The notes under the pieces were generated by a model. That model had not been told where the DNA came from. It saw only the letters and a list, made by a program, of their open reading frames with translations, and ran no database searches. 64,000 bases of DNA from Terebella lapidaria (lineage: Eukaryota; Annelida; Polychaeta; Terebellida; Terebellidae), in NCBI GenBank assembly GCA_949152475.1, contig OX424570.1, positions 23,556,694 to 23,620,693 on the forward strand. The letters are read 5' to 3'. This document shows positions 20,901 through 52,800 of the stretch, one piece after another; within the stretch, counting starts at the first letter, position 1; every line of letters starts with the position of its first letter. The position numbers and the translations under genes were made by a program.

Positions 20901-23900
20901 CCCATATATGTTGTTCCTTGTGTTGTTTTGCTCCTATGATGAAGGACATCATTCGACTTATAATTTCTACATTTTTAATCGTGGTTGGGGGGAGGAAATA
21001 TATCAGCCCGTGGTTCCATGAAGAATTACCAGAGTGTGACAAGCATGATACAGTTTATCGATCAAAACATTCGATTTTTTTCACTCTACACCACAATAAC
21101 TCATTCAGAACTGGAAAAAAGTGTTATTCATACACAATTCCCTTTTCTTCAGAAAAAGGGCAACGTCGTTATCAGTATATTGCAGTCATATATAATACAG
21201 CTCATTTTGTTGAAGATGATTGTTGTGCTCCATATAAGTCTACTGAAACAGATGTTGTCAATATGGTTAAAACATTATGATGACGTCACACTATTGTGTG
21301 AAGCGTGGATTATTTTTGAGGAATCAACTAGAAGCCGGGGATTCTTAACGCACAATTTCCAACACTTTGAAAAGAATCAACGGTTAGTCATGGTAAATTT
21401 TTATTTGCAGAGCTCACACATAATATTATTGGATAATTTCGTGTACATAACCAGTATATGTGATATTGCATATTACATAACAGCATATTTCAAATTCAAG
21501 TTCAGGGTAATCTTGATTGGCAACTTGTCTTTGTTTCTGATGGGAAATTCAGAGCGTGGATCCTCCGTAGCACTACTTGTGCTTGAGATTACTGCACTTA
21601 TCTTCTTGCGCTTGGCATCGGACACGCGCTTGTACGGACGGACAGCCAGAGAACGATGACCAGTAGTTCCACATATCAGCTGCTCATCCATATCTTGTTC
21701 AAACAGACGCGAAGCGGCTGTGGCTCGTAAGGAATGATTTGTTCGATATCCATCTAATCCAGCGTCCTTACAGAGACGTGAGACAGTTTTCATCAACTCA
21801 TTCTCTCGTTATTACTTTCCAGATATGGTAATTTTTCAAATTGTTACAACATGAATTTGCTGACATTGTCGTTTATGTCCATTATGCAAAGTAATCTCAG
21901 CTGTTCTGTTTAAATGTCGGCATTCCACTCTGAGATGCACTGTCCAACGAAGCCTCGAATTTCTGGCATGTTGACACGAGTTCGTCGTCTGAGATGTCAG
22001 AATATACAGGTCGATACGCCGGAAGATTGGGCCTAAAAGCATGAAATTACTGTTAGTTATTATACCAATTACCACAAACTGTCATCATAGAAACATTTAA
22101 TCAGATATACAGCAACTTCGAATAGTTTATACATACTGTTTCGCCACTCGTAGTCCGATATCCAATTCGGAGTGTTTTGTCACCAATATTTCCGAGCATC
22201 TGTGCTGCATCGAACGCTTGATCGCTATCTACAGATGCATTCAAATCAAAACTGATTTTGCTCTGTGTGATGAAGATATCGTCATCGTCGCTCACTTGCG
22301 CCTGCATTTTGTCAGTGTCGAGTCGAGTGATTTTCTGGGTTTCGCGCAATTGTATTTATATCATGTCACTCGCAATGGTTCAGTGATTTAAAGAATCCAC
22401 ACTTTCAGTCTGTATGCATGACGCGAAAAGCATACATGACGCAACTCACGTTTGTAATACTATTATATTATATCTACACATGACTAGGCCTACACATGTT
22501 TTAAGTCGGAGAAAAGACTCAAAAGATGTGGATTCTTTGATTTCAATGCTCTCGGCCGCTTCGCGGCCTCGAGCATTCAAATCAAAGAATCCACACTTTT
22601 TCGTCCTTTCTCCTAGACTTAATTTTCTTATTGATAAAATCTTTGTGGAGTTTGGTGGTGGAATATTTCAGCAAACTATTAATATCCCTGTGGGTACAAA
22701 ATGTGCACCACTATTGGCAGACATGTTTTCATACTTATATGGATCAAATTTAATTCAACATCTCAAACGAGGAGGATCTAAGAAGCAAACTGGTAGCTTC
22801 AATTTCACTTTTTGATACATGGAAAATGTATTGTCACTGAATAATCCTAAATTTGGTGATTTGTTTGGTTGGACTTCATATATGGCCAATTTTTTCTTCT
22901 GGGGCCAAAAAGTGGACATTTCGGTAAAATAAAAAAAAGACTTTTATTATTGGGTAAATTTCGCTTGAAAACCAAGCAATGAATCATGGAATCATAATGC
23001 TGCATCTATTTGGGCTATTTGGAGTAATAAAACCTGCTTTATCATTAAAATGCAGCAGATATGTTCTCTGGCGTTGCGTATGTTACTCTGCAACAAAATC
23101 ATACTGTAATGATATAAGCAAGCCAATTAATACGGTCATATGTGTTGAAATACAAAAACTGTCTTTACCTGAATGCATAATACCAGTTTCAATCAGTCCA
23201 TGTTGTGTTAAAGATGTAAAATATGAAGACGAATGATATTGGCTGTCAGGTTAATTTAGCGACAACTTCTAGTTATGTTCCCATGTATGTGACACCACTT
23301 TTCCTTCATTTCTTGGTATAATGAGGACTTAGTCAATCTATGGAATCTTATTCCTCAATTACAAGTTAATATTTCACTTGGAACCAAATAAAATATGTAG
23401 TTTAATGTTGCGTATGTTATGCTGACACAGATAATTTGAAGTTGTTTGTATGTTACATTTGACATTGCAGGTATGTTATGTTTGACATTGAGCTTTGACA
23501 CCATGTAGCAAACAAAATAAATCACACAGTGTGATGTCTGAATGTTGGCAAAAATATGCCAATTTGACTATCTGCCATGGTCAGCATTAGCGAGATACTG
23601 TATATCTCGAATAAAATTAGGAACAGTATGAATAAAAAGGTAATATAAGTTCGTATGTTACTATCGGCAATCGGAAAACACGGTCAAACATAACGTACGT
23701 AACATTGACTGCTTTATTGCCTGGGTGGAGCTAGGTGCCCCCCCCCCCCCCCCCCAAAAAAAAAAAAAAAAAAAATTGGCCATATTCTAATGAAATTGGA
23801 ATTAAATATATTACAGACTACTATAATTTATCCAACTACTTAGATCTAAGGTTGGATATTGAAAAAAATTCTAACTTTACAACTAGATTATACGACAAGC

Positions 23901-26900
23901 GTGATGATTGCAATTTGTCACAGTGAATTTCTCTTTTCTAAGCAGCAACATTCTTATGTCGCAAGCTTGCGGCATATTTGTCTCACAACCATACGCTATT
24001 CAAGAGCTAGATGCAGATATGACGACTTTGTTCACCGAACTTCGTTCACTAAACTGCTGCGACAAGAATATGTTTTAATAAGTTTAATAAGTAACCTACA
24101 GTGGAGATAATTATTTTTGTGGCCAGCGGAAATATCTTGGGATGGGAATGTTTATGTGATTAAGAACTTAATTGAGAAATTTATTGGATTGAATTGCTCA
24201 TTATTCTCCATATAATAAACAAAGAAGAACATATCTATTGATGTGTATCCGAGCAAAGACATTCAATGGTTTTAATGTTGCCCAATGTTTTGGATCAAAT
24301 TGATAGTTAACGCGTCTATTTTGGTGTAAGGAAATATTTTTCATCACATTTCATCGCTTTTATATCGTAAACTATAACAGTTGGCAACCTTTCGTAATTG
24401 TTCTGCCAACATCAGAAATTTAGCGCTTCTGTACTGCTACTGAACGTTGCGCTACTGTATGCGTATGTATCAAGGTAAATCAACAAGTATCGCAAAGCTC
24501 CCACAGTATTTGCGTTTTCCACAAGATTAAAATTTAAAACCTCATGGAAACAATCAGAAATATTATTTTTGGAATTTTTGTGATCCTTTTCTTGAGTTTA
24601 CTATATTACATTAATGATAGCAGGACTGGGCCCACACATGAGACCAGCGGGACGCGCTGGCCAATCTGCATTCAAGAAATTCTATGGACTCGTCACAATC
24701 TGGTTGATATGGGGAGGGGGGAGCACATCACAATCTGGGGGCACATGTGGGGCAGGAAATACTCTTTCCAGAACACCTGATTGCACCTTCTCGCCTTCTT
24801 GAGAAAAGTGACGTTAAGTGGGTATTTTTCGGTTGGGAACACATCCCAAAATGAGGTTTGCAGCAAATATTTTTTCCTTAGTATAGATTGGTCAAAAAGC
24901 ATATCTGGCCATTTTGGGGGGGGGGGGAGGGGGGTTCATGAGATTTCCCTGACATTTTTGTTTTGTCTCACTTCGTATGCCTGATATGACTTTCTGTCCC
25001 CGGACTATGAGATTGGATAACGGACCCTGTTTTGTTTGCTCGGAATACTTAATACTGGCTATTGATTCCACGTCTATGTACCCACCACGATGAGAACGAT
25101 GAAGGCGGTGAGCCAAACCATCGGGGCCAAGGGCCGGAATACACTGAAGACATTGGGCCGCATGTTGGTCGAGTTGTCCTCTAAATATGCCTTTCGTACG
25201 AGAAGTGTGAGGCCATAATTCTGAAAAGGTTTCACGAAGTCGACAACACTCTCTCTACTACTGGTAACAACGAGTGCGGCACCCGTCATGTCGGCTCCTA
25301 CAGATCTGTTTCCCTGCACTTTGCCATCCGGACCATACTGTGTACACAGCGCGAAAGTAGTAAGGCCAATTTTAGACATTGAATCAAGGCATACTGTACA
25401 ACTCGTGTTATCTGTAATATGTGTGTACGTGCAACGGTAAAATCAATATGGATGTCGTCTGACTGTCGGTGCTTATTTATAATTCATGTAATATATGACA
25501 AACGTACTCATTTAATTTTCTCATAATCAGTCTTCCTCTCAAATTAGCATCCTTGCAATATATGTTTCCAGTGTATTGTTTGTTTCCCCACAGTTTACAC
25601 GCTACTTCGGAGGCATGTTAATCATTTGGGGTCATTTCTTACCAGCTGGTACCTAAGCTGTTGTGACAAGTACATGTTTTTTTTCCGAGACTAAAAGACT
25701 CTTGCACGAACTTTATGAACATCATCATGATCCAATTGATGATTACATGTGTACTAAATCTACGACAAGTTCTTTTTCTCGACTGGTTTGCTTATTCAAG
25801 ACGAGTGCCATAACACACGATTTCACTTGATTATGGCCATGTTCATGGGGCTCCATAAATATCCCCCATATTGCCTTATCATGGACATGGAGATTTGATC
25901 GCACACGAGCCCGTAATCCAATCTAAAAAAATACAGGATTCGTTCTTTCGAAACGCTTCATATTTGATATCGATCCGACGTTTCTACGTATAGAGACTTT
26001 TTACCGATAAAATAATAAAATTATTATGGAACCAATAAATAGTCATGTGCCAGGGCCAATTCGGTGTTCGTGCAATTTGGTGATCAGCATGCCAAACAGC
26101 TCGGCTAGTGAGCTATCCCTTCAGCTCGCTCGGAAGTGTTGGACTACCGTTCGTCAGGTTGTCGGTTCGAATCCCCTCTCGGGCTAGTGGATTTTTCTGA
26201 ACCCTGTGATACACAATATGTATGTATGGATGAACATGCATGAGAATAACTAATCAACGTACCTGCCTCTTTGCGAGCTCCCCTATTATTCCATTCCAGC
26301 GTCCGTCCTTATCTACTGACCCGTATTTACCATCAGGAACCAGGTACAGCTCATACTCGAAACCCAGCCGCCGGGAAATCATTTTTATCAGGTCCGGTAT
26401 GAATCCGGTCATGTCTCCCCCATCATTCAGCATAGTGTAGGGTGGATACTGATACAGCAGATAATCAAATCATCCATGTTACTGTGGATACTATTCTGTC
26501 ACCAATCATTCAACCAGCATATTATTATCGCCAAAAATTGAGAATAATTTAGGTTGTAACGATACGCAATAAACACACATAAAAACACTCCTCATTGTTT
26601 GGTTGAGCAGCAAGTTTCAATTTCCACGGAAAATAGTATTTCTCCTGGACTCTGATTGAATATGCAGCAAGCCTGCAACGTTTTCAGGCACCCATTTCAA
26701 ATGGCACTTCGCAGAGAACATCAATTGGGAGGGAAAACTAGACCCGGTATGTAGTTGGTTCTAGTTGGTAGTGTCTACAGTAACACATAAACTATTGAAA
26801 ACTATTGTTCTACACATATATAGTATTTTGTTCTTGAGAAATAATATTACCTTGGTATGCTCAGAATGTTAAACCACACTCACCATAATAGTTGTGATAC

Positions 26901-31891: not shown

Positions 31892-34800
31892 TTAGAGGAT
31901 GGCGTCGCCTGGAAAAACAAAATTGTTCATTTCAAATGGGAGTAATTATTATTCTTATTTTTCTTGTTGATTTTGCATTCACTCTCATACAGCAACTTCA
32001 ATGCATGGAATTGTCTTACCGTTCCTTCTTTTGGGTTTCCTCATCTCGTAAATTATTATCGTTACTATATTCGCAATAACCATAACACCGAAGGCAAACG
32101 ATACGCCAGTTACTGCGCTGTACATTTTCGCACAAGGGTCATTATCTGTAAGACAAAAATTAGCCCAAGGGCTAAGAAAGGTTACCGGACAATATATATT
32201 TTAGATATTACTATTTTGTCCCGTGACCTTGAAAATAAGGTCATTGGTCAATTCAAGGACATGATAATATTCGGCATATGTCATTTCTAGTATGGCCACA
32301 ATTGATTCCTAAGCTGTAAAGCCAATAATAAGCGAGATATTAGCCATCATGTCCTGTGACCTTGAAAATGAGGTCAACGGTCGAATTCAAGGTCATAGCA
32401 ATATTCAGCATATATCATTTCCTATATGTTCATAATTGATTCCTAAGCTATAAAGTCGATAATAAGCGAGCTATTGGCAATTTTGTCCTGTGACATTGAA
32501 AATTAGGTCAGAGGTGAAGTTCAAGGTCATGACAATGTTCAGAATATATCATTTTCTATATGTTCACAATTGAATGCTAAGCTGTAAAGTCGGGAAAAAG
32601 CGAGATATTAGCCATTTCGTTCTCTGACCTTGAAAATGAGGTCAAAGGTCAAATTCAAGGTCATAGCAATGTTCAGCATATATCATTTCCTATATGTTCA
32701 TCATTGATTCCTAAACTGATCCTGAAAATGAGGTCAAAGGTCAAATTCAATGTCAAGGCAATAATCTGCATATATCATTTCCTATATGTTCATAATTGAT
32801 TCTCAAGCTGTAAAGTCGATAAGAAGCGAGATATTAGCCACTTTTCCTGTGACCTTGAAAATGAGGTCAAAGGTCAAATTCAAGGTCATTAGAATATTCG
32901 GGATATATCATTTCCTATATGTCCACAATTGATTCCTAACCTGTAAAGTCAATAATAGGCGAGATATTAGCCATTTTGTGCTCTGACCTTGAAACTGAGG
33001 TCAGAGGTCAAATTCAAGGTCACGAGAATATTCAGCATATATCATTTCCTATATGTCCTCAATTGATTCCTAGTCTCTAATCTCAATATTTAGTGAGATA
33101 TTAGGCATAATGTGTCCCATTATAAAGCATAGGAGAATTTAACATGGGAAAGTCCCATTTGGGATGAGTTTCAAGCGCAACGAAATTTATACACATCACA
33201 GGAATACATATGAGAAGTGTTATGTATCAAAAAGAAAAATTAGGCCAAGGGCCAAAGGTTACCGGACAATGTTTAATATTTTAGATATTAGCCAGGTCAC
33301 TGGTTAAATACAAGGTCAAGAGAATATTCAGACTATATAATATTAAGTCACTGGCTAAATACAGGGTCAAGAGAATATTCAGCATATATCATGTCCACAG
33401 TTGATTGCTAAGCTGTAAATTCAATAATCAGAGAAATATTAGCAATTTTGTGCTGTGGCCTTGAAAATGAAGGCAAAGGTCAAATTCAAGGTCATCAAAA
33501 TATTAAGTATATATCATTTTCTATATGTCCACAATTGATTCCCAAGCCATACAGTCAATAGAGGAGCAAGATAATGAGGTCAAAGGTCAAATTCAAGGTC
33601 ATGACAATAATCTGTATATATCATTTCCTATATGTTCAGAACTGATTCCTAAGGCCACACCAATTTATAACGTTGGTCGATGGAATCGCCGCCCCTAAAA
33701 ATTCTTCCTCGAAATTTCGATAAAAAAAATCGCCGCACCTATTTTGAGCTGACAAAATCTAACGACATTTTATTTGCAGTCCGCATTTTACAAAAAGCGC
33801 AAACATTCGATCGGCGGTAAAACTTTGTGAAAAAATCAAATCAAAATGAGTTCTCTTAAAAAGGGTTGTGACCCGATATCGTTGATAGTGTCGTTTCAAG
33901 GAAAAAGAACTGCATTCCAAGTACCACTTGCGACTACGTTCGCCGAGTTATTCAGTTTGTTCTGTGTCAATACATGTCTGACAGAATCAGTTGGGGTGGG
34001 CGATAACACAAGCATTTCAGCACAGCTACACGCGGGGCTCGCCCCTGGCAATGGAATATCAGTATCGTCGCTGACATTGAATGTTTCATTGTGTAATGAC
34101 CTGGGATTAAAGTTTGTTGAATTTCTACAGCCAAAATGTTCAAGTGACACCAAATCTAATCCAGGTCTTTCAACCTCTCAGACTCAAAAACAGAATGCCT
34201 TTGACTTTCTCATGCATTCATCATCTCAGATGACTGCCTTCCCGAGCAAAACACTTCCAAGCTCCCAAGAAATTCCACTGAATGCACAGCAAAAAATGCA
34301 CAATGACATCCTGGACTGGGCAGCCAGCATAGGGTCTGCGTGGACAAACTCAACCTTGCTTAGTGGGGCACACACACTAAAAGCTCTATCAAACACACTT
34401 TGGTATATTGACCATTCGCATGAAAAACTAAAGAGTCAAGGCTGTCGAGTTCCGAAATGTTTTGAAGCATTCTCCAACTATAGGGACTTTTCCAAACAAC
34501 ACAGGAAACCTCAGCCACTATCGTACGAAAAGTTGAACGAACTTTGCCTTGACTTGACGAAAATACTCTCTTTCCCATCTACTTGTACCAAGCAGAATAC
34601 TAAACTTCACAAGAGTATTGAGTCCCTACTGACCATACTCATGAAGTATTGTGCTCATCTAAAGCAGGACAGCGAATTACACAAGAAGAACAGGGCATCA
34701 GTTGAGTCAGTCCAACCCAAAACCAGCACAGAGCCAGAGACACAACTGATCAGTCTTGACGCGATCCCTAAAATTGACACAAACCTCTATGGAAATTTGG

Positions 34801-37800
34801 ACACTCACCTAGCAAACATAGGCAACTACTCTTTTGTTGATTTGGACGAATTTTGTCCAGCTGATCGCTTGAAAAGACGAAAGTATTTGGCTGACCTACG
34901 ACTCAGAAGTTGTGCGATGCTGTACCGAGTTGTCTACGGTGGCTCACTTGGAACAATCAACTTCATTTGGACGGTGGATATCGCAGACAGTGATGAACAG
35001 AAACTCATGAAAAATGCAGAAATCATGAAACAGATCGAAAAGACTATGCCAAAATTTACCTCTCGTGCAATGAAAAGAGATTTTCTCAACAAATACTCGA
35101 AGGTGGCGAAGTGTTCCAAATCTGTTTTGCGTCACATGTTGTCAGACATCACTGGAAGCATATCGACGGCAGAAACAAAGAAACAAAAAGAAGTCGACGA
35201 CAGAGTTGCCGAATATTTGCTGTGTGGGGATGAGACAGACCTCATTTTAGATCTCCGTTCCCTGCATGAAAGAAACACAACTCGCTTTGAAAGATTCTTT
35301 CAAGAAGTTGAGAACTACTTTGCTGATCAACTGGCAGTGCATGAAAGGAGACATGGTACTGAACAGTACATCCCATTTGCCATGTCAAAAGAAGATCTGA
35401 GGGCACAAATTATCGAGCGTCTCTCCGATGATGTCCCGATTCCCAGTGCAGAGACCTTGAGACTCCAGTTTCATCCTGCAAACTGCCACGCCAAAACAGC
35501 TGCTAAATACTATGGCAGATTTGATGTCAAGTTTCGCCTGCAAACACGCATGTCCAGGATGCATCATGTTGACACCAGATATGTGGCAACACAATACGGC
35601 TACATGAAAGAATTCGCTGTCATGTTTCGAGATCACGCGACAATGGTCTGTATGGACGACAAGGCGATAGTCCCAGTGGGTGAGCCTGATCTGCCCATCT
35701 CTACTGGAGTAAGGGGACACAACAAAGTATTGGCGCCTCTCGATAAACCGCTCACTGCACTCGACCATGATTTCCACACCGCAGGCATTGTTCCATCTGT
35801 CGTTTTCATTCCGACCATACCTGACCACAAATGTGACAGCTTCTTCACAGGAAATGTGTTTGTGACCTTGAAAGATAAGGTCTTCCAAGCATCCACACCT
35901 TTCAGGCACTCAGCAGAACTCCTACATATCTTGAGAAACAACTTCTCTGCAGACAGTGTCAACTCTGATAAACCAGTTCTGTTGCTGTTCACTGATGGTG
36001 GCCCTGATCATCGTCTGACCTATGACACTGTCAAAGTAGCACTCCTTGAAGTTTTCGTGCAACTGGATCTCGACATGTTGATCGCGATGAGGACAGCACC
36101 ACATAATAGCTGGACAAATCCTGCAGAACGTTGTATGTCGCTGCTGAACCTTGCCCTTCAACATGTTGCCCTGAGCAGGGATAAGGTGCCGGAACCACAC
36201 GAGCGAGGTATCAAAAACAAATCCAGTCTGACAGCAATCCGCAACCATGCTGAAATCACAGACTCTTTCAAGGATGCCTACTCTGCCAGTATGACGCCAG
36301 TGATGGAGCTCTTGAAAGAAAGATTTGACCGGCTCTCGCTGAAGGGTACACCGTTCGTCACCTACATGGGATTATCTGATGAAGAAGTTGCCGCACCTCT
36401 TGATATTGTTCGTCAGGTAATCTAATTCATTTGCATGATTCATAGGACTGGAATAACAATTTTACATAGTTGTAAATGAATTTGTATTTACTTCACTGAA
36501 TTCAGGTGACTGGATGTGGAAATCTGAGCGTCTCCAGCTCCTGCAAAGACACTCGCTCACACAAAGACTTGATGGCATTTCTCAAGGACCACTCAAGAAG
36601 TGCAAACTACTGCTTCCAACTGAAGAAGTGTAACAGGCCAGAGTGTGGGTACTGTAGTATGAACCCACCAAGAGTAGACGATGAAGTATTCGCCAAAATG
36701 AGCTACCTCCCTGAACCAGAACCAAATGAGTTTGGAGAAAGCTTCAAAGATTTCAGTGAGGTAAAGATGTTCTAAATATTATTCTGAAATATTTATAAAT
36801 TGCATTCATTTTCTTCAGTATGTAATGCACTCTCTGGAAAATACCTGCTCTCTACATAATCAATGTTTCCCGTGTTCCAATGTTTATGCATATTAAATTA
36901 CTGTAATTTTGATGTACACATGCACAATGCAAACAGGATTCATCCCTGTTTTTCAGCTGTACGGAAAGGAGCTGCCACAGCGCCCCGATCGACACATGCC
37001 ATCAGCAAAAATCGAAGGTGTCAACCCAGAGGCGCAGGATGCTGACAAGTCTCATCGAGATGTGCTCAAGGCAGCAAAAGTCCGATCCAGGGTAATCTGT
37101 ATACAGTGTGGCAAACCACGGTGCATCTACTCCATGCAGAAGCTGTCAGTGGAACAGGCAAGTATTTGGCATAGTACTTCGAAAGAAAACAGCGATATTC
37201 ATGGTTAAAAATGTGAAGTACATGTGTTTCTTTTGCATATTGATTTTGACTTAAATGTTTTCTTGTCACATGTATACATGTATAACAAAAGGCATATTGT
37301 AATTTAGAAAAATTTAAATCGGTATCAATGATAATTCTGATAAACTCTCAGGTGATTTTTTCATGTTTTTTCTCTTGCAGGAGAGGTACTTGACCAGGAC
37401 ACGGGAAGAATGTTGGTACGTCTGTGGCGATGGATTCCCTACTCACGACGCTGCCACAGACCTTGTCATTCGGCGTGCCATCATGTGCTCGACCCCAATC
37501 GAGGTTTCGTACTTCTCGTCACCTGTATACTTGCCACCAGTGTGCATCCATTGCGGAGTCGAAGAAAATTTGTTAGATGACTACGATGACTACATTGTCG
37601 AATTACATGAACAATTCTCAACGGTGCGCCCAATTTGTTCTGCTTGTCGGTCTGCTGGCAAACAAGCATTGACATGGGGCAAAAAATTCTTTCAAAAGAA
37701 ACAGAAGGTCTAGACTAGAAGACACTATCTCGCGTACTATTGTACATGCTAACAGTATTTTATTTTTTTCTAACAAATGTGATATCTTTGAGTTATAGTT

Positions 37801-40800
37801 TCTGCTGAATATAGTATTTTAAGGATTTATATATTTTTGTCTATTTTGATGGGATTTTTGTTGATGATCTTTGTTGAACAGAAGATTTGAGTTACAGTAT
37901 TGGCATTGCTATATTGGTTATTCCGAATCATCTTTGTGATCGTTTTCATACTAGATGTGTTAGTGATCCTTCTGTAGTACTGGTATTTTGCATTGTGATA
38001 TGGTTTTTGCTAAATATATTAGCATCATTTAAAATCTTAATATTTTATCGAGTCATTTTTTTAGAGTTCATGTTACTGTCGTGTTTCTGTTGTGGATAGA
38101 AAATGTTCAGTAACTCTTCTTGTTCATGATTCCATATTTTTTCTGCAAGTGTGCATTTTGTGTCTCAATATCAATATGGTGCTCTGCTTTAATATGTAAA
38201 TCTTGAAGAGTGAATTCATGTTACTTTCGTGTTCAACTGTGTAGGTTTCACTTGGCTACCAGGTTTTTTGAGGACATTCCTGATGTTGATAGAAAATATC
38301 TGCTCATTTTCCTTGTTCATAATTCCATTATTTTTGGCAAGTGTGCATTTTGTGTCTCAATATCAATATGGTGCACTATTTAGTGAATTCATGTTACTTT
38401 TGTGTTCAACTGTGAAGATTTCACTTGACTATCAGGTTTTTGTGAGGACTTGATTTTGATAGAAAATGTTTGGTCATAATTCCATACTTTTTCGGCAAGT
38501 GTGCATTTTGTATCTGAATATATGGTGCTTTCTTTGAACCATAGTTGATCTCAATAAAACCTATTTTTATTCGAAAGCTTTCTATTTTCAATGTTAAATG
38601 CATTGACATTGAAATAGAAATCAAAATGCAAATATGTGGTCAAACATTTTATTGCAACATTAGAAAAATGTAAATTAAATTGGCACATGCATGTACATAT
38701 AAATTGTTCACCATTCCTTTAAGACATGAAAACGTTCACCAAAATTAAGACATGAAAACATATATAATACCGATACAAATATATATATTGAACATTGTAT
38801 CAAATTGATCATTCTGTAAACCATTCCCTCGTACCAAACTGAGCCGTAAGTCAGAATTTATTACTTTAAAATAATCTCTCTGTAATGAAATTGTAATCAT
38901 CAATATACAAATGTTCAACCTCCCACTGTCAGGTAATGATCTTTTCATGTGTACACTCAGTGTTTAGTTGCGGTGTTCGTCTGAGTTGTTTTCGCATTGA
39001 GTATTGACCGCTCCTCGATCACGCGGGCGGGCAGTAGTATAATATTGTATGGGGTGATATTGGTCATTCGACCGCAGACCGCAGCAGTGGACGGATCACT
39101 GGCTCGAGAAGAATGCCAGGCATACATTTTGGCGAGAATGCCACGTGTTTGTAAAATGGTTCGAGAAGAATACCATTGAATTAGAAGTTATTTCATGAAG
39201 AAACGAAGCAGCTTGGTTTGAGAAGAATACCAGCTGAAGTGTATATTTTTGTATTTGTGTTCGTCTACCAAGGTATGTTCACACAGTTAGATTTATTGGC
39301 CTAACTTTGATGTTAGCGGGGTAATTGATTTGTATTATCAGCTGTAGCAGCATAGGCGTATATTCCATATTGTAGTTATTGTCTAAACCGTTAAGCTACC
39401 GTGCGTAAACTAGTTTTTGTATTTTATTATTATTATTGTTAGGAATATGCTACGACAGCAGAATTTGTAAATTATTTCAGTGCCTTCTGTGTGAACGCCG
39501 TGCCTGTGTTGTCGCTCCGTTGTCCTGTCGCCATTGTTCGTCCGCCGTGTTCAACGTGACGTCGTCGTAGACTGCGCCGAAGTCGAGTACACCGTATCAT
39601 CTCATCATCAACGTCATCACCACGCGGTCCTCGCACTCTCGCCAGCTCGCGTACAGTCATCGCTCGGGCACGCTTCGTCAATTCACAAGGTTATAATCAT
39701 GGGACATTCATGGGACATTTTTGTGTAAAGTGGACATTCAATTTGTGGGTTATATTGTTCTGGTCGTAAATTAGTGCTGAAATTACTGTTCTGGTATATA
39801 TATCGTGGGGTTATAAATAAATGTTTGTCTGTGTAACTTGTGTTTCATCTGTCGTCTTACACCACACTTTGCTGGCCCAATAAGTTAAAGGTTTTCTTTT
39901 AACTATTTCATTACATTTTGGCGCCCGATAAGGGACCAGCAAAACGGTGTGTTGGCGGTGGCTGTCTCACGAGTTAGCGCTCATTATGCGCACCATGCAT
40001 ATTCAGTGGCGGTTAATTTGTATTTCGGTAGTGTCCGGCACTTGGTAAATGTATGTCTAATTGTTGCCATTTTGGTATATACTGTGCGGGAAATGGATCC
40101 CGAGAAACTTGTTAATGCCGGCAAGGCAATGGGTCTTGAAGGTACGGAATTAGTGGCGTATGTAGAGAAATGTCAAACTGAGTTTTATGAGAGAGAGGAG
40201 AGAGCTGGTGCTAGAGAACTCAGGATTCGAGAAATTGAGGCAGAAACTGAGCGCCTTAAGGCGGAAGCGTTGCTGCGACATGGTGATACAGAAGATAGTG
40301 ATCAATCTAATCAATCTAGTCGTACTACTTCCGGAACGTTGCCTAAAGCTCCCAAACTTCCCCATTTCGACGAGACAAAGGACAGTATTGATTCTTATTT
40401 GTTACGTTTCGAACGGTATGCAGAAAGTCAGAAGTGGTCTCGTGGTGGGTTAGCGTCGTATCTCAGTGCATTGTTGAAGGGTGGCGCATTAGAAGTGTAT
40501 TGTCGCATGCCTGCTACTGATGCTTCGGATTATGACAAGGTTAAGACGGCCTTATTGAAGCGCTACGATATGACAGATGACGGTTTCAAACGGAGATTTT
40601 TCTCGGCTAGACCAGAGAGAAACGAGACTCCATCCCAGTTCATTGCTCGTTTGGACCACTATTTTTGTCAACAGTTGAACACACGTTTGAAGGTGTTAAG
40701 GATTTGCTGGTGTTGGAACAGTTTTTGCGTCGTAGTTCACGTGATTTAGAGACTTATCTTCGAGAGAGATTCACTAGTGACATTAGAGAAATGGTTAGCT

Positions 40801-43800
40801 TGGCAGATGCATATTTGGAGGCTCATCGCTCGTCACAAACTAACAGGCAAAGTTCGCAGCAGAAACCACAGCCAAAGTATAGCGATCAAACTGATAGTGG
40901 CTCGGTTCAGGACGGTTCTAGGGACAAACAGGGTGTACAGGATAGGCGCGTACGTCTTTGCTTTATTTGTGGCAAAGCGGGACATATTGCTCGGGATTGT
41001 AGGGCTGTTCCAAATAAGGGTAATGTGTCTAGTTCGACGGTAATGGACGACAGGAATCAGCCAGAGGATGTTGTACGTAATCTTGACGATGAATTAGAGC
41101 TTGAGTCTGGTTTGGTTGGAGGGAAACCTGTGAAATTGCTGAGAGATACGGGGTGCACAGGTGTCATTGTTCGTCGTGATCTTGTGAGTGATGACCAGTT
41201 AACAGGTAACCAGAGCTCGTACATGACATGTGATCGCAGCACTTGCACTGTACCAACTGCACGAGTAGAGGTAGTCACGCCTTACTACTCTGGACCAGTG
41301 ATTGCATTGTGTATTGATAATCCTGTGTGTGAGCTGATACTTGGTAATTTTATCCGTACGGAGAATGGTAAGTTTCCGACTCCACAGCTAGCTGATTCTA
41401 TTGGATGTGTGTTTGATGAGCAGGATTCTACGGATTGTTCAGCAGTGGTCACTCGTGGTCAAAGTAATCGTGATTCAAAACCGGTTAAACCATTGGTTGT
41501 TCCCAGTATATCAGGCTTCGGTTCGCCAGCAGAGTTCAAAGCTGAACAAGACTCTGACAGGACGTTGCATCATTTCCGAGAGATGGCTGACAAGGGTCAA
41601 GTTATTCACAAGTCCCGGTATGTGATCAATTTTTCGATTGTCGATGGGCTGTTGTATCGTCAGGTGAGGTCAGGTGGAACGCTGCAAGGTGAGAAGCAGC
41701 TACTTGTCCCTGGTAAGTTTCGTGAAAACATCATGCGGATGGCTCATGAGACGTTGCTTGCGGGTCATTTAGGCATCAAGAAAACGACCGATAGGGTGTT
41801 GTCTAGTTTCTATTGGCCAGGCATTCACGGGGACATCATGAGGTTTTGCCAATCATGTGATATTTGCCAGCGCACAGTACCACGAGGTAAGATTCGCAAA
41901 GTTCCTTTGCAGAAGATGCCGGTTATGACTACACCATTCCATCGTGTTGCAGTTGACATTGTGGGTCCGCTTCGCCCTGTTACCAGTCGTGGTAATCAGT
42001 ACATTCTGACTATTGTGGACGTCGCTACGAGGTACCCGGAGGCGATTCCGTTGGCTAATATTGACACAGCTACAGTCGCTGAGGCTTTGGTGAAGGTATT
42101 CTCACGTGTCGGTATTCCGCAGCAAGTTTTGTCTGATTGTGGCACACAGTTTACTTCGTCTATGATGAAAGAGGTTGAACGGTTACTCTCTATTGATCAC
42201 GTCACTACTAGTCCATATCATGCCCAGTCTAATGGTTTAGCAGAGAGGGTGAACGGCGTTGTCAAATCCATGTTGAAGCGTATTGCTGCCAATAATCCCA
42301 AGGAATGGGACAGGTACTTGGAACCTCTATTGTTCGCTTATAGGGAAGCTCCTCAATGCAGTATGAAATTTTCCCCATTCGAGCTGTTGTATGGGAGGAC
42401 CATACGTGGACCAATGTCAATCTTACGTGAGTTGTGGACGAACAAATCACTAGATGAGGACACACAAAACACATATCAGTATGTTGTTGATTTGAGAAAT
42501 CGTATTGAAGAGTCGTGTGACATCGCTAAGCAGGAACTACTGAAGGCTCAAAGTGTTCGAAAGTCGCATTTTGATAAGCACACGTGTCAGCGCTCTCTAC
42601 GGGTTGGTGATCAGGCGTTGTTATTGCTCCCTACAGACGCAAATAAGCTTCTGATGCAGTGGAAAGGTCCTTTTGATGTCATTGGTAAAGTTGGCTTGAA
42701 TGACTATGTGCTTCAGGTTGGTGATAGTGGGCGCGTTTTTCACATCAATATGTTGAAGAAGTACTTTTCTCGTAAGGCGGTAGACAAGCCAGTTATGTCT
42801 ATGACTGCAATTGCTTTTGACGGCCAGGATTCGGATGACCCAGATAGTATCGTATCACATAAACCAGATCGGGTGGAAACGTACAAGGATGTACACATTG
42901 ATTCGGATCTGACAGATTCCATGCATCGGGATATTTCCAGGGTTGTTTCAGAGTTTCCAGACATATTTTCGTCTTTACCAGGTTCCACTAGTCTCGTAGA
43001 ACATGACGTTCATTTGGTGGATCAGACACCAGTTCGTACTAAACCGTATCCAATTCCCTATGCAATGGTTGATAAGGTCAAGGAGGACATAGATCAGATG
43101 CTCCAGATGGGTGTCATTGAACCTTCTCAGTCGCCGTATTCGTCTCCCATTGTCATTGTTAAGAAGCGTGATCAGTCTAATAGGATTTGCGTGGATATGC
43201 GAAAAATTAACAAGATTACTGTATTTGATGCTGAGCCGGTCCCTGATCCAGAATTGATCTTTGCTAGTGTTGCTAATGACAAGTACTTCACAAAGCTTGA
43301 TTTTTGCAAAGGTTATTGGCAAATTAAGATGAGTGACAGGTCTAAGCCTATTACTGCATTCAGTACTCCTTTTGGTCAGTATCAATTTTGTCGAATGCCA
43401 TTTGGTTTGGTTAATTCAGGTGCTTCGTATGCTCGCATGATGCGTAGGTTAATCCAGGACATGCCTAACGTCCATAACTTTGTTGACGATGTTCTAGTTC
43501 ATACCAAGACGTGGACAGAACACTTACAAGTGCTGAAGGAGTTGTTTTCTCGTATCCAGTCGAACGGTCTTACAGTGAAACCATCAAAGTGCTTTTTGGG
43601 TTATCAGAACGTTGATTTTCTTGGTTTCAAAGTTGGTCAGGGTTTCCGTCGTATCTTTGATGAGAACAAAGAGAAAATTCGTAGTGTTGGCAGACCTACA
43701 ACTAAAACTGAACTGAGATCCATGTTAGGTTTACTCAATTTCTATCGCAGACATGTTCCAAATTATGCAGCGATTGCAAGGCCTTTAACGGATTTAACTC

Positions 43801-46800
43801 GAGGTGGTGTTCCAAATGAAATTCCGTGGCCTCCGCAGTGTGAACAATCGTTCCAGCAGTTGAAGGATGCTTTATCATCTGAACAAATTTTGAAGTTACC
43901 CGATATGTCAAAACCTTTTGTGCTCAGGACAGATGCTTCGAATTCCGGTCTAGGGGCTGTGTTGTTCCAGGATTATGGAGGTACATTATTTCCGGTCCAT
44001 TGTATCAGTAGGAAGTTAATCCCAAGGGAAGAATCACTATCTACAGTAGAGAAAGAGTGTTTAGCTATTGTGTGGGCCGTGGATAAGTTGCAGGTGTTTT
44101 TGTATGGTCAGGAGTTCATTCTAGAAACGGATCATGCTCCGTTGCAGTACCTGAACAAAGCGAAGTTGACAAACCCTAAGTTGATGAGGTGGGCTCTGTC
44201 ACTACAGCCCTACAGGTTCACTATTAGGTCAATCAGAGGTGTTGACAATGTTGGTGCTGATTATTTCAGCCGATTACCAGAGAGTTGAAATGTAGCAGTA
44301 AAAAGTTGACTATAAACTGAAGTAGAAGTTGTGATTGAGTTGAATTGTACCTATGCTTGAGTGGGAAAGCGACCCGTCTAAGTTTATTATCAGTGATTTT
44401 GAAGGTTTTTTTCAGTTGACCAAAGTTGTCGAGGTCTATCATATTTTGTATTCGTACTCAAGATGAGTTTACTTGAGTTATGGTATCTTGTAAGTGGTAA
44501 TAAGAAACGAGATAAGTAGAACTGAAGTCATTTCGGAGGTCATGTATTGTACCTAGAGGTTAGAGGTCATGTATTGCATGTATTGTACCTAGAGGTTAGA
44601 GGTCATGTATTGTATGTATTGTACCTAGAGATCATGTATTGTACCTAGAGGTGTTGATCATGAGGTGTTGATCATGGGTTGGACAGAAGTAGATAAGCAG
44701 ACTGAACATTTATATTCTTGGGAAGGGAGGTGTGTAATGAAATTGTAATCATCAATATACAAATGTTCAACCTCCCACTGTCAGGTAATGATCTTTTCAT
44801 GTGTACACTCAGTGTTTAGTTGCGGTGTTCGTCTGAGTTGTTTTCGCATTGAGTATTGACCGCTCCTCGATCACGCGGGCGGGCAGTAGTATAATATTGT
44901 ATGGGGTGATATTGGTCATTCGACCGCAGACCGCAGCAGTGGACGGATCACTGGCTCGAGAAGAATGCCAGGCATACATTTTGGCGAGAATGCCACGTGT
45001 TTGTAAAATGGTTCGAGAAGAATACCATTGAATTAGAAGTTATTTCATGAAGAAACGAAGCAGCTTGGTTTGAGAAGAATACCAGCTGAAGTGTATATTT
45101 TTGTATTTGTGTTCGTCTACCAAGGTATGTTCACACAGTTAGATTTATTGGCCTAACTTTGATGTTAGCGGGGTAATTGATTTGTATTATCAGCTGTAGC
45201 AGCATAGGCGTATATTCCATATTGTAGTTATTGTCTAAACCGTTAAGCTACCGTGCGTAAACTAGTTTTTGTATTTTATTATTATTATTGTTAGGAATAT
45301 GCTACGACAGCAGAATTTGTAAATTATTTCAGTGCCTTCTGTGTGAACGCCGTGCCTGTGTTGTCGCTCCGTTGTCCTGTCGCCATTGTTCGTCCGCCGT
45401 GTTCAACGTGACGTCGTCGTAGACTGCGCCGAAGTCGAGTACACCGTATCATCTCATCATCAACGTCATCACCACGCGGTCCTCGCACTCTCGCCAGCTC
45501 GCGTACAGTCATCGCTCGGGCACGCTTCGTCAATTCACAAGGTTATAATCATGGGACATTCATGGGACATTTTTGTGTAAAGTGGACATTCAATTTGTGG
45601 GTTATATTGTTCTGGTCGTAAATTAGTGCTGAAATTACTGTTCTGGTATATATATCGTGGGGTTATAAATAAATGTTTGTCTGTGTAACTTGTGTTTCAT
45701 CTGTCGTCTTACACCACACTTTGCTGGCCCAATAAGTTAAAGGTTTTCTTTTAACTATTTCATTACACTCTCATACCAATTTTGTCAAACCAAATTCCAT
45801 TGACACGAAATATTGTTTAAAAAAAATATATCCCTCGTATGATTTCTGACGCAACAAATTCCAAAGACAAAAAATTTAATATTAAATGTAAAAAAAAGTC
45901 GCTCCCACGTATGAATTTTTCCGGACAAAAATCCATAGACCAACTTTATAAATTGGCGTGGCCTAAGCTGTAAAGTCGATAACAAGCGAGATATTAGCCA
46001 TTTTCTCCTATACCCGTGATAATGGGGTCGAAGATCAAATTCAAGGTCATCAGAATATTCAGCATATATCATTTCCTATATGTCCACAATTCATTCCTAA
46101 GCTGTAGAGTCAATAATAAGTGAGATATTGGCCATTTGTCCTGTGACCTTGAAAATGAGGTCAAAGGTCAAATTCAAGGTCATTGGAATATTCGGCATAT
46201 ATCATTTCCTATATGTCCGCAATTGATTCCAAAGCTATAAAGTCGATAATAAGCGAGATATAAGCCATTTTGTGCTCTGACCTTGAAAGTGAGGTCAAAG
46301 GTCATGTTCAAGGTCATGACAAGATTCAGTATATATCATTTCCTATATGTTTGCAATTGATACCTAAGCTGTAAAGTCATTAATAAGAGAGATTCTAGCC
46401 ATTTTGTCCTATGACCTTGAAAATGGGGTCGAAGGTCAATTTCAAGGTCAGCATAATATTCAGCAAATATCATTTCCTATATGTCCACAATTGATTCCTA
46501 AGCTGTAGAATCGATAATAAGCGAGATATAAGCCATTTTGTGCTCTGACCTTGAAATTGAGGTCAGCGGTCAAATTCAAGGTCACGAGAATATTCAGCAT
46601 ATATCATTTGCTATATGTCCACAATTGATCCCTAGTCTCTAATCTCAATATTAACCTTTTCGCTACTGACCCACCCCTCAGCCTCCATACTGAGCCGATT
46701 CATGTATGAATTGATAGGATTTCTATATGTTTGATTATTTTTATTTAATATTGTTTCAGAATAATTAGGTGCGAAAATAAAGTCATATTATAGTGTGTTA

Positions 46801-49800
46801 TTTCTATATAGTATACTTGTCAACCCCATTTCATCGGTTACCGTGGAAACAAGAATTCTAGGGACTAAACAGATGGCTATTTTCATTTTTTTTATCATAC
46901 AGCCATATTCGAAATTGTAATGAGATATAATCCAATACGTTTTACTCTAGTATTTGTAGTCTTCTATATTTGTGATGATGTGAATGTCGTGAGTTTTGAT
47001 GGTGTTTACAGCATGTCAATATCTTGATTACTTATGGAGATGTTAAAGTTTTAGTGAAAATTGTCAGTAGTCCGACCCATTGTAATCGGTATTTGTGACG
47101 TCACAAGTTTAATGACAGGTTAATTATTCAATTAACTAAACAGTCAATTAAGCTTCTAGATTTCAATCGGTGGCAATATGTATGTGCTAGTTTAGCGTGT
47201 AGGTACATTCTCGGGTATATATAACATTAAATACAATCAATGGACAGTTACCTCTACATCTATTGGTTGTCAAAGTCATGGTTACGCAGCGTAACCATCA
47301 GTACAGCAGGAGGGTGTGGTATGGTTACGCAGCGTAACCATGAGTAGTGAAAAGGTTAAGTGAGATATTATGCATAATGTGTCCCATTATAAAGCATAGG
47401 AGAATTTAACATGGGAAAGTCCTATTTGGGCCGAGTTTGGGTCAAAATGGCCCACTTCGAGCGATTCAAGCGCAACGAAATGTATAGACATCATTGGAGT
47501 ACATATAAGGAGTGTTATGTATCAAAAAGAAAAAAAGTAACTGAACAGATTTTGAGAAAATGGCCACCAAAGTCCAAAATCAGGCATTTTCGTCGAAAAC
47601 GGCCGCCATTTTGAACAAAATGTGAAAATAAAAAAAATAAAAAATACCTCCCTCTTGAATTATTTTTAAGTATTTTTGTGTAAAATTTCAGAAAAATTCG
47701 CCCGTAGACAAATAAGATAAAAATGTGGACGACGACGACGATGGACGACGACGGATGCAACGCCATGCCAATAGGTTATCGGACCATAGGTACGGTAACC
47801 TAAAAAAATTAGCCCAATGGGCTAGTAAGGTTACCGGAGAAATATACAGAGTTAAGCCGAGAAAGTTGAAAGTCAAATTCAAGGTGACCACTGAAATCGC
47901 CATATCTCTAACCGTGAAAATGGGATCAAAGGTTAAATTCTAGATCACCAAACTATTCAGCATACATCATTTCCTATATGTTCACTATGGACCCCTAAGC
48001 TGTAAATTTGATGATAAGCGAGATATAAGCCATTTTGTAATCTGACTTTGAAAATAAAATGACTGACCTTGAAATTTAGGTCAAAGGTCAAATTCAATAT
48101 CATTAAAATATTCAGAATATATCATTTCCTATATGTTCACAATTGATTCCTAAGCTGTAAAGTCGATAATAAGCAAGATATTAGCCATTTTGTCCTGTTG
48201 ACCTTGAAAATGAGGTCAAAGGTCAAATTCAAGGTCATGAGAATTTTCAGCATATATCATTTCCTATATGTTCACAATTAATTCCTAAGCTGTAAAGTCG
48301 CTAATAAGCAAGATAATGGCCATTTTGTCCTGTGACCTTGAAAATAGGTCAAAGGTCAAATTCAAGGTCACGAGCATTTTCAGCATATATCATTTCCTAT
48401 ATGTTCACAATTGATTCCTAAGCTGTAAAGTCGCTAATAAGCAAGATATTGGCCGTATTGTCCTGTGACCTTGAAAATAGGTCAAAGGTCAAATTCAAGG
48501 TCACGAGCATTTTCAGCATATATCATTTCCTATATGTTCACAATTGATTCCTAAGCTGTAAAGTCGCTAATAAGCAAGATATTTGCCATTTTGTCCTGTG
48601 ACCTTGAAAATGAGGTCAAAGGTCAAATTCAAGGTCATGAGAATTTTCATCATATATATCATTTCCTATATGTTCACAATTGATTTCTAAGCTGTTAAGT
48701 CGCTGATAAGCAAGATATTGGCCATTTTGTCCTGTGACCTTGAAAATGAGGTCAAAGGTCAAATTCAAGGTCACGAGAATTTTCAGCATATATCATTTCC
48801 TATATGTTCACAATTGATTCCTAAGCTGTAGAGTCGCTAATAAGCAAGATATTGGCCAATTTGTCCTGTGACCTTGAAAATGAGGTCAAAGGTCAAATTC
48901 AAGGTCATGAGAATATTCAGCATATATCATTTCCTATATGTTCACAATTGATTCCTAAGCTGTAAAGTCGATAATAAGCGAGATATTAGCAATTTTGTCC
49001 TGTGACCTTGGAAATGAGGTCAGGGTCAAATTCAAGGTCATGAAAATATTCAGCATATATCATTTCCTATATGTTCACAATTGATTCCTAAGCTGTAAAG
49101 TCGATAATAAGTGAGATATTAGCAATTTTGTCCTGTGACCTTGGAAATGAGGTCAGGGTCAAATTCAAGGTCATGAAAACATTCAGCATATATCATTTCC
49201 TATATGTTCACAATTGATTCCTAAACTGTAAAGTCGATAATAAGCGAGATATTAGCCATTTGTCATGTGACCTTGAAAATGAGGTCAAAGGTCAAATTCA
49301 AGGTCATGAAAATATTCAGCATATATCATTTCCTATATGTTCACAATTGATTCCTAAACTGTAAAGTCGATAATAAGCGAGATATTAGTCATTTTGTCAT
49401 GTGACCTTGAAAATGAGGTCAAAGGTCAAATTCAAGGTCACGAGAATATTCAGCATATATCATTTCCTATATGTTCACAATTGATTCCTAAGCTGTAAAG
49501 TCGATAATAAGCGAGATATTAGCCATTTTGTCCTGTGACCTTGGAAATGAGGTCAAAGGTCAAATTCAAGGTCACGAGAATTTTCAGCATATATCATTTC
49601 CTATATGTTCACAATCGATTCCTAAGCTGTAAAGTCGCTAATAAGCAAGATATTGGTCATTTTGTCCTGTGACCTTGAAAATGAGGTCAAAGCTCAAATT
49701 CAAGGCCACGAGAATATTCAGCATATATCATTTCCTATATGGTCACAATTGATTCCTAAGCTGTAAAGTCGATAATAAGCGAGATATTAGCAATTTTGTC

Positions 49801-52800
49801 CTGCGACCTTGGAAATGAGGTCAAAGGTCAAATTCAAGGTCACGAAAACATTCAGCATATATCATTTCCTATATGTTCACAATCGATTCCTAAGCTGTAA
49901 AGTCGCTAATAAGCAAGATATTGGTCATTTTGTCCTGTGACCTTGAAAATGAGGTCAAAGCTCAAATTCAAGGCCACGAGAATATTCAGCATATATCATT
50001 TCCTATATGGTCACAATTGATTCCTAAGCTGTAAAGTCGATAATAAGCGAGATATTAGCAATTTTGTCCTGCGACCTTGGAAATGAGGTCAAAGGTCAAA
50101 TTCAAGGTCACGAAAACATTCAGCATATATCATTTCCTATATGTTCACAATTGATTCGTAAACTGTAAAGTCGATAATAAGCGAGATATTAGCCATTTTG
50201 TCATGTGACCTTGAAAATGAGGTCAAAGGTCAAATTCAAGGTCACAAGAATATTCAGCATATAACATTTCCTATATGTTCACAACTGATTCCTAAGCTGT
50301 AAAGTCGATAATAAGCGAGATATTAGCCATTTTGTCCTGTGACCTTGAAAATGAGGTCAAAAGTCAAATTCAAGGTCACGAGAATATTCAGCATATATCA
50401 TTTCCTATATGTCCACAATTCATTCCTAGTCTCTAATTTCAATATTAAGTGAGATATTAGGCTTAATGTGTCCCATTATAAAGCATAGGAGAATTTAACA
50501 TGGGAAAGTCCCATTTGGGCTGAGTTTGGGCCCAAAATGGCCCACTTCGAGCGATTCAAGGGCAACGAAATTTATACATGTCACAGGGGTACATAGGAGG
50601 AGTGTCATGCATTAATAAGAAAAAAAGTTACTGAACAGATTTTGAGAAAACGACCGTCGAAGTCCAAAATTGGCCATTTTTCGACGAAAACGGCCGCTCT
50701 GACCTTGAAACCAAGGTCAGAGGTCAAATTCAAGGTCACGACAATATTCAGCATATATCATTTCCTATATGTCCACAATTGATTCCTAGTCTCTAATCTC
50801 AATATTAAGTGAGATATTAGGCTTTAATGTGTCCCATTATAAAGCATAGGAGAATTTAACATGGGAAAGTCCCATTTGGGCCGAGTTTGGGCCAAAATGG
50901 CCCACTTCGAGCGATTCAAGCGCAACGAAATTTATAGACATCATAGAAGTACATATGAGGAGTCTTATGTATTAAAGAGAAAAAAAGTTACTGAACAGAT
51001 TTTGAGAAAATGGCCGCCAAAGTCCAAAATCAGGCCTTTTTCGTCGAAAACGGCCGCCATTTTGAAGAAAAAGCGAAAATCAAAAAACTAAAAAATACCT
51101 CCTTCTTGAATTATTTTTAAGTATTTTTCTGCAAAATTTCAGAAAAATTCGCCCGTAAACAAAAAAGATAAAAATGTGGACGACGACGACGACGGACGAC
51201 GGACGACGGACGACGGACGCAACGCCATGCCAATAGGTTATCGGACCATAGGTCCGGTAACCTAAAAAAGTTACTGAACAGATTTTGAGAAAACGACTGT
51301 CAAAGTCCAAAATTGGCCATTTTTAGACGAACACGGCCGCTCTGACCTTGAAACCGAGGTCAGAGGTCAAATTCAAGGTCACAAGAATATTCAGCATATA
51401 TCATTTCCTATATGTCCACAATTGATTCTTAGTCTCTAATTTCAATTTTAGGTGAGATATTAGGCTTAATGTGTCCCATTATAAAGCATAGGAGAATTTA
51501 ACATGGGAAAGTCCCATTTGGGCCGAGTTTGGGCCCAAAATGGCCCACTTCGAGCGATTCAAGGGCAACGAAATTTATACATGTCACAGGGGTACATAGG
51601 AGGAGTGTCATGCATCAATAAGAAAAAAAGTTACTGAACAGATTTTGAGAAAACAACCGTCAAATCCAAAATTAGCCATTTTTCGACGAAAACAGCCGCC
51701 ATTTTGAAAAAAATGCGAAAATCAAAAAACTAAAAAAAACCTTTCCTGGAAATATTTTTAGGTATTTTTGTGCAAAATTTCAGAAATATTCGACTGTAAA
51801 CTTTAATGATAAAAATGTGGACGGACGGACGACGGACGACGGACGACGGACGCCGGACGCAACGCCACGGCAATAGGTTATCGGACCAAAGGTCCGGTAA
51901 CCTAAAAAGTTACTGAACAGATTTTTAGAAAATGGCCGCTAAAGTCCAAAAGCAGGGATTTTTCGTGGAAAACAACCGCTCTTTTGAAAAAATTGCGAAA
52001 ATCAAAAAACTAAAAAATACCTCCTTGAATTATTTTTAAGCATTTTTGTGCAAAATTTCAGAAAAACAATCGCCTGTAAACAAAAAAGATAAAAATGTGG
52101 ACGACGACGGACGACAACGACGGACGACGGATGCAACGTCATGCCAATAGGTTATCGGACCATAGTTCGGTAACCTAAAAACAATTATAGTATTTCCTGA
52201 CAAACATTGAGTTTTTATACTTACCATAATCTTTACAGACGACGATGATTTCACTGTTGTATTCCCATTGTGTCCACGTATTATCCTCTTCCCATTGTGA
52301 CGTCACTTCCTCTGGAGAATAGGCATGGCTCAAACCAGCCAATATGAGCGATTCGTTACTGCAAGGAACACGACCTACAGCCCACCCTTGCCATTCGTAG
52401 CTGTCCAACCTCTCCAATAGATAGTAGAGAAATTGATGTTCGTCATCAAGCTCGTATAGGAATCTTCCATTGCAGGTGTTCTCTGTAATTTGATATTCTC
52501 CCTCGTAAGAGTCGTATGGAAATCCCCCAAAGTCATCCTTGATCTCGACGACGGAGCACGCTGAGGAAATTAAAGAAGTCATGGATGCCACAGCTTTACT
52601 GTGATTTCATACATGCTGGGGATTTTAAGTGGCATTTCATGTTTATGTCGGTTTTGTTTTGGAGCCGTGTCTCTGAACAGTAATATGTGGTCGAGCTTGG
52701 GGTTCTTTCCCAAACATTTTGTTTTTTACGTCCATATTTTTCATCATCGAAATTTTGTGGGAATAGGCTGATACAATATGATAGTTTGATCTGATTTCAC

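Follow-up and report, generated by a model that had tools for sequence, protein, structure and literature searches.

Structure of the transposon and its insertion site

The 64,000-nucleotide stretch of the Terebella lapidaria genome analysed here (GenBank assembly GCA_949152475.1, contig OX424570.1, positions 23,556,694 to 23,620,693; hereafter, the window) harbours a DNA transposon at 33653-45963 (12311 bp), which begins with GGCCACACC... at its 5' end and whose inverted partner closes at 45963. The terminal inverted repeats (GGCCACACCAATTTATAA... at 33653..33684, plus strand; right repeat at 45932..45963, minus strand) were paired at 29 of their 32 bases, compared with a best value of 21 among 20,000 random position pairs of the neighbourhood; and the motif with which they begin, GGCCACRCC, had two matches in the window, both at the transposon ends (0.23 expected). 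The two copies of the TAA duplication (33650..33652 and 45964..45966, without strand) were located by reading the flanks and by an empty-site test.

The element is inserted in a satellite that repeats every 133-134 bp: 33 CCTAAGCTGTAAAGTC-like sites with up to 3 mismatches were found in the window, including the right flank, compared with 0.29 expected. A BLAST search of the window with the reconstructed empty site, one TAA having been dropped, returned 44 matches, of which 40 spanned the junction, 27 of them ungapped; when both TAA were retained, 39 matches spanned the junction and none was ungapped (three gap letters in each of the four displayed rows). The flanks rejoin into an ungapped satellite monomer only if one TAA is removed, indicating a 3-bp TAA duplication and a restorable target. 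Satellite arrays of this period occupy 3458-4527, 32203-33239 and 45962-50849.

More than half of the transposon interval (6887 of the 12311 bp) corresponds to a nested long terminal repeat (LTR) retrotransposon (38881..45767, plus strand), absent from the preliminary description of the locus, which is not part of the DNA transposon and was recognised by its identical LTRs (38881-39915 and 44733-45767; 1035 bp each) and by its integrase and reverse transcriptase domains. It is flanked by a 5-bp CTCTC duplication (38876-38880 and 45768-45772), and subtracting it together with one CTCTC leaves a transposon of 5419 bp (12311 - 6887 - 5). The nested element begins about 1.2 kb past the transposase stop codon and thus leaves the gene intact. 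In its pol frame the integrase domain is upstream of the reverse transcriptase (Pfam), an order differing from the usual one of Ty3/gypsy elements and which we take to be that of Gmr1-like elements. The identity of the LTRs is evidence of the recent arrival of the nested element only. Imperfect repeats with a spacing of about 150-190 bp were observed at 38064-38530, between the end of the transposase reading frame and the nested element; they are perhaps subterminal repeats of the transposon.

The transposase gene

The transposase gene (plus strand) was reconstructed as four exons whose spliced frame encodes 1119 residues without any internal stop. Exon 1 (33846..36416, 857 codons), defined by its open reading frame and by the alignment with ISAzo13 transposases described below, encodes the N-terminal part and, downstream of a putative helix-turn-helix located around residues 527-545, the DDE domain. 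The other exons were defined by the spliced frame: exon 2 (36506..36760), which is Cys-rich; exon 3 (36957..37157); and exon 4 (37381..37713), which carries CxxC pairs as well as the stop codon. The first two introns are GT-AG and the third is GC-AG; the use of an alternative GT donor at 37092 in place of the GC donor also keeps the frame open (1097 residues). The catalytic residues are D604 (35655..35657), D717 (35994..35996) and E761 (36126..36128), with 112 residues between the first two (111 if counted from D605) and 43 between the last two. An open gene and little-altered ends suggest that the transposon was inserted fairly recently, and the open gene is compatible with recent activity of the transposon.

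The inverted repeats, the TAA duplication with its restorable target, the undamaged four-exon frame and the D, D, E motifs had already been proposed in the preliminary description, and all of them held; the spacings of 113 and 44 given there are position differences, equal to the 112 and 43 intervening residues counted here. The zinc-ribbon-like C-terminal tail also proposed there is plausible from the several CxxC pairs it contains, although none of the Pfam zinc families matched it.

Relationship of the DDE domain to ISAzo13 transposases

No transposase domain was detected by Pfam in the 1119-residue protein or in its parts, and the exon 1 protein did not match any NCBIfam model. We compared the protein with a set of bacterial and archaeal ISAzo13 transposases (TP36, PF07592) gathered from plasmid sequences (10 retrieved) and from 80 loci of prokaryote genomes, which yielded 35 distinct proteins. 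Profile comparison (hhalign) against these 35 sequences gave 89.3% (E 2.1e-6) across residues 583-839, 92.4% (E 5.3e-7) when the DDE part was used alone, and 82.2% (E 1e-5) against the 25-row subset containing a DHD motif. The hhalign scores were 58.2 with the 35 rows and 51.0 with the DHD subset, compared with best values of 24.1 among 100 shuffles and 27.9, respectively. When the complete exon 1 protein was used, control families were far lower: 1.9% for IS630 (17 rows), 0.2% for ISL3 (3 rows), and 0.1% for rve (11 bacterial rows), PF01609 of the IS4/IS5 type (12 rows) and IS256 (15 rows); with the DDE part alone, IS630 reached 3.8% and the others 0.1% or less. BLASTP aligned residues 597-767 to one ISAzo13 protein, L005, at E 1.8e-4 (47-protein set).

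Under three MAFFT settings, D717, G719, N758 and E761 were aligned to an identical residue in all 35 rows. D604 was taken as the first catalytic Asp, and not D605, because it was aligned to Asp in 33 of the 35 rows (two gaps); the first Asp of the DHD motif was aligned in 31. The window protein and the DHD-containing group (e.g. L005, L028 and the Calothrix copies L011-L017) have in common the pattern D..DHD..D.G..P..S..N..ER, and IPSAETLR of the window protein resembles LPTSETIR of L005 in the presumed helix-turn-helix region. The last two catalytic residues are separated by 42 residues in ISAzo13 (counted by hand in L007) and by 43 in the window protein, whereas the first two Asp have 85 residues between them in L007 (also counted by hand) and 112 in the window protein. 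ISAzo13 proteins also differ in being of about 400 residues, encoded in a single open frame and devoid of the long N-terminal part and of the Cys-rich tail; identity with the window protein was 16-23% across the aligned part.

These profile comparisons indicate that the DDE domain is homologous to ISAzo13/TP36 transposases, and the preliminary proposal that the element fits no superfamily that can be named was not borne out, whereas its reading as a DDE cut-and-paste element with exact ends, a TAA duplication and an intact gene stands. The profile search suggested there thus had a mixed outcome: no transposase match in Pfam or NCBIfam, and a relationship of residues 583-839 to ISAzo13 by hhalign. 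A retroviral-integrase-like identity (Ginger, IS3EU, IS481EU), in line with the likeness to RNase H-fold integrases claimed earlier, was considered and rejected, given the rve control value and the lack of any Pfam rve match.

The alignment of the catalytic residues with ISAzo13 also bears on the extremely improbable case of a host gene, and not a transposase, lying between chance inverted repeats: the single copy observed and the large multi-exon protein would suit such a gene, but the exact ends, the restorable target and the aligned catalytic residues argue against it. A PIF/Harbinger-type element (IS5 group) is in turn very unlikely. PIF/Harbinger elements generate 3-bp duplications of the TWA/TAA type, like that found by the empty-site test, and TAA is also common among ISAzo13 loci (see below); the case against this group comprises two results, the lack of any match to a Pfam DDE family and the PF01609 control value of 0.1%. 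The likelihood of an Academ-type element is similarly very low. Academ elements produce 3-4 bp duplications, as would suit the window transposon. Their mean length in bivalves, 5565 bp in the survey PMC10294476, is close to the 5.4 kb of the window transposon, and the match to ISAzo13 is the sole point against them.

Target duplications and ends of the bacterial relatives

Sixty-eight loci of ISAzo13 relatives were scanned for their ends; 63 exceeded the end-score cut, and 28 of these presented a usable direct repeat, in a scan that sought repeats beside the ends and so shaped the number of loci with a repeat, not the letters of the repeat. The repeats were: TTA (16 loci), TAA (9), TCA (1), TAG (1) and one longer match containing TTA. 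The 28 loci include seven Calothrix copies, which sit between TTA or TAA repeats and represent separate insertion sites of one element. Once six of these copies were set aside (22 loci, 44 ends), all 44 ends started with G, 36 of them with GG; CCA was present at positions 8-10 in 19 of the 44, as it is in both ends of the window element. The target duplication and the sequence profile are two agreeing lines for the link with ISAzo13.

Among the ends compared, the most similar to those of the window were the ends of an ISAzo13-type element from a Chloroflexota metagenome-assembled genome (L028:153-1331; GGCCAAACCAAT). They coincided at 13 and 12 of 18 positions; among 2000 random sets, 43 and 145, respectively, reached these values, so the likeness is weak.

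Classification of the element

The window element is very probably a highly divergent eukaryotic transposon of the ISAzo13/Zator type, the link with Zator being made through published descriptions. Its introns, together with a glutamate-receptor fragment elsewhere in the window, are as expected of an animal host. The eukaryotic superfamily Zator produces 3-bp duplications like that of the window element and resembles bacterial ISAzo13, which shares this duplication length (excerpt of PMC10045372); likewise, Zator is paired with ISAzo13-like elements in the part of PMC5718144 consulted, and is presented as related to ISAzo13 or TP36 in that of PMC7386202. The window element would extend a known kind rather than clearly open a new one: since ISAzo13 is a relative that already has a name, we do not assign the element to a new superfamily, nor do we claim that it belongs to Zator proper.

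Several results weigh against this assignment. The hhalign value was 26.9% (E 7e-4) with the 10 rows outside the DHD subset, mostly classical ISAzo13, and 15.5% (E 0.0017) in the first comparison, made with four ISAzo13 rows. Separation by hmmsearch was poor: 3.9 bits with the DHD subset, below the best of 201 decoys (6.9); 5.2 bits with all 35 rows (best decoy 4.8); 4.8 bits with the other 10 rows (best decoy 1.6); and 5.0 bits with the IS630 profile (decoy 2.6), equal to ISAzo13. The insertions between the motifs of the window protein may be the cause. Zator is recognised through Pfam 07592, whereas this profile did not match the window protein, although it did match the three bacterial rows tested; the NCBIfam ISAzo13 model did not match it either. 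These absences reflect library thresholds and not a property of the element, and therefore mark the protein as divergent. In a tree of 45 rows, the branch of the window protein was very long and its position lacked support; one IS630 control row (L098) grouped among ISAzo13, which if anything makes the control with IS630 overly generous. At the DNA level, 35 of the 63 bacterial loci lacked a usable repeat, and the window element is known from a single copy (in the 64-kb window). TAA is preceded by CC on both sides, so that a 5-bp CCTAA duplication with ends shifted by 2 bp is also compatible with this single copy; TAA is preferred because of the symmetry of the ends and because of the duplications of the bacterial relatives.

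Structure prediction contributed to the same side of the balance: the mean AlphaFold confidence (predicted local distance difference test, pLDDT) was 32.8 for the protein alone and 49.8 with 28 ISAzo13 rows, and the fold search with these models returned no structure at E 0.001 or better. Its weak top matches (RuvC, Argonaute and UvrC, which we take to be RNase H-like) were not counted as evidence, and unrelated proteins such as lumazine synthase were also among them. In the model with bacterial rows, the order of strands and helices around D604, D717 and E761 fits an RNase H-like fold, but the rows themselves shape this model. The structure prediction proposed for the DDE region in the preliminary description thus gave neither a confident model nor a significant fold match.

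The same divergence could be read as a separate undescribed animal superfamily, close to IS630, Tc1/mariner, ISAzo13 and Zator, that split early from the ISAzo13/Zator stem, encodes a large multi-domain transposase, makes TAA duplications and is possibly still active; we regard it as possible, if rather doubtful. It overlaps the ISAzo13/Zator-type classification, with the same ISAzo13-related core and mechanism, and differs only in the distance from Zator. The silent PF07592 profile, the long unplaced branch, the similar hmmsearch scores of the ISAzo13 and IS630 profiles, the long additional N- and C-terminal parts and the introns all favour such a separation; the hhalign contrast between ISAzo13 (89%) and IS630 (1.9%), obtained even though the profiles of these two families match each other at 99.7%, and the TTA/TAA duplication held in common with ISAzo13 loci argue against it. 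The window protein has an NP.E pattern near the catalytic Glu, like that of Tc1/mariner transposases. IS630/Tc1/mariner elements are wider relatives of ISAzo13 but distant from the window protein, and their duplication is a 2-bp TA (excerpt of PMC10045372).

Searches for closer relatives of the window protein did not confirm any in the viral_contigs or genome_contigs collections, found none in phages or plasmids, and gave one chance-level match among the PDB sequences. Of 292 cyanobacterial genomes, 15 gave matches with E values no higher than 0.1, none of them convincing (best E 0.0058); among the matches listed, one (residues 661-783) lay inside the DDE domain and was riddled with stops. The strings TDGGPDHR and DGGPDH were present in no transposon paper of the literature searched, by a text search that does not cover alignments in figures (DGGPDH was present in one paper on an unrelated subject), and the matches listed from the literature on new superfamilies, Academ and Zator did not name the family.

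Under the ISAzo13/Zator-type classification, bacterial ISAzo13 would be linked to a eukaryotic transposase that is large, contains introns and escapes both Pfam and NCBIfam; animal genomes may hold many unrecognised proteins of this sort, should they prove common. The apparently intact copy with exact ends offers a practical start for activity tests of this little-studied branch.

Proposed transposition mechanism

The transposon, which measures about 5.4 kb, or 12.3 kb if the later LTR element is included, encodes one large spliced transposase, whose putative helix-turn-helix, and perhaps also its N-terminal part, would bind the GGCCAC... inverted ends. The DDE core (D604, D717, E761) would then cut the ends, excise the element and join it to a TAA or TTA target with a 3-bp stagger, giving rise to the 3-bp duplication. 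The stagger and the target follow from the duplication, whereas the other steps are drawn from knowledge of the DDE elements of the group: we infer end binding, cut-and-paste transposition, present-day activity and the RNase H-like fold, as well as the functions of the first 500 residues and the Cys-rich tail.

Other features of the window

Three further features were observed outside the transposon: a large inverted duplication, in pieces that are 91-97% alike (4547-7435 and 11295-15470); a tyrosine recombinase fragment on the minus strand (21473-21805; Pfam Phage_integrase, E 1e-6), perhaps Crypton-like; and a fragment of a glutamate-receptor ligand-binding domain, also on the minus strand (25074-25442; E 4e-7).

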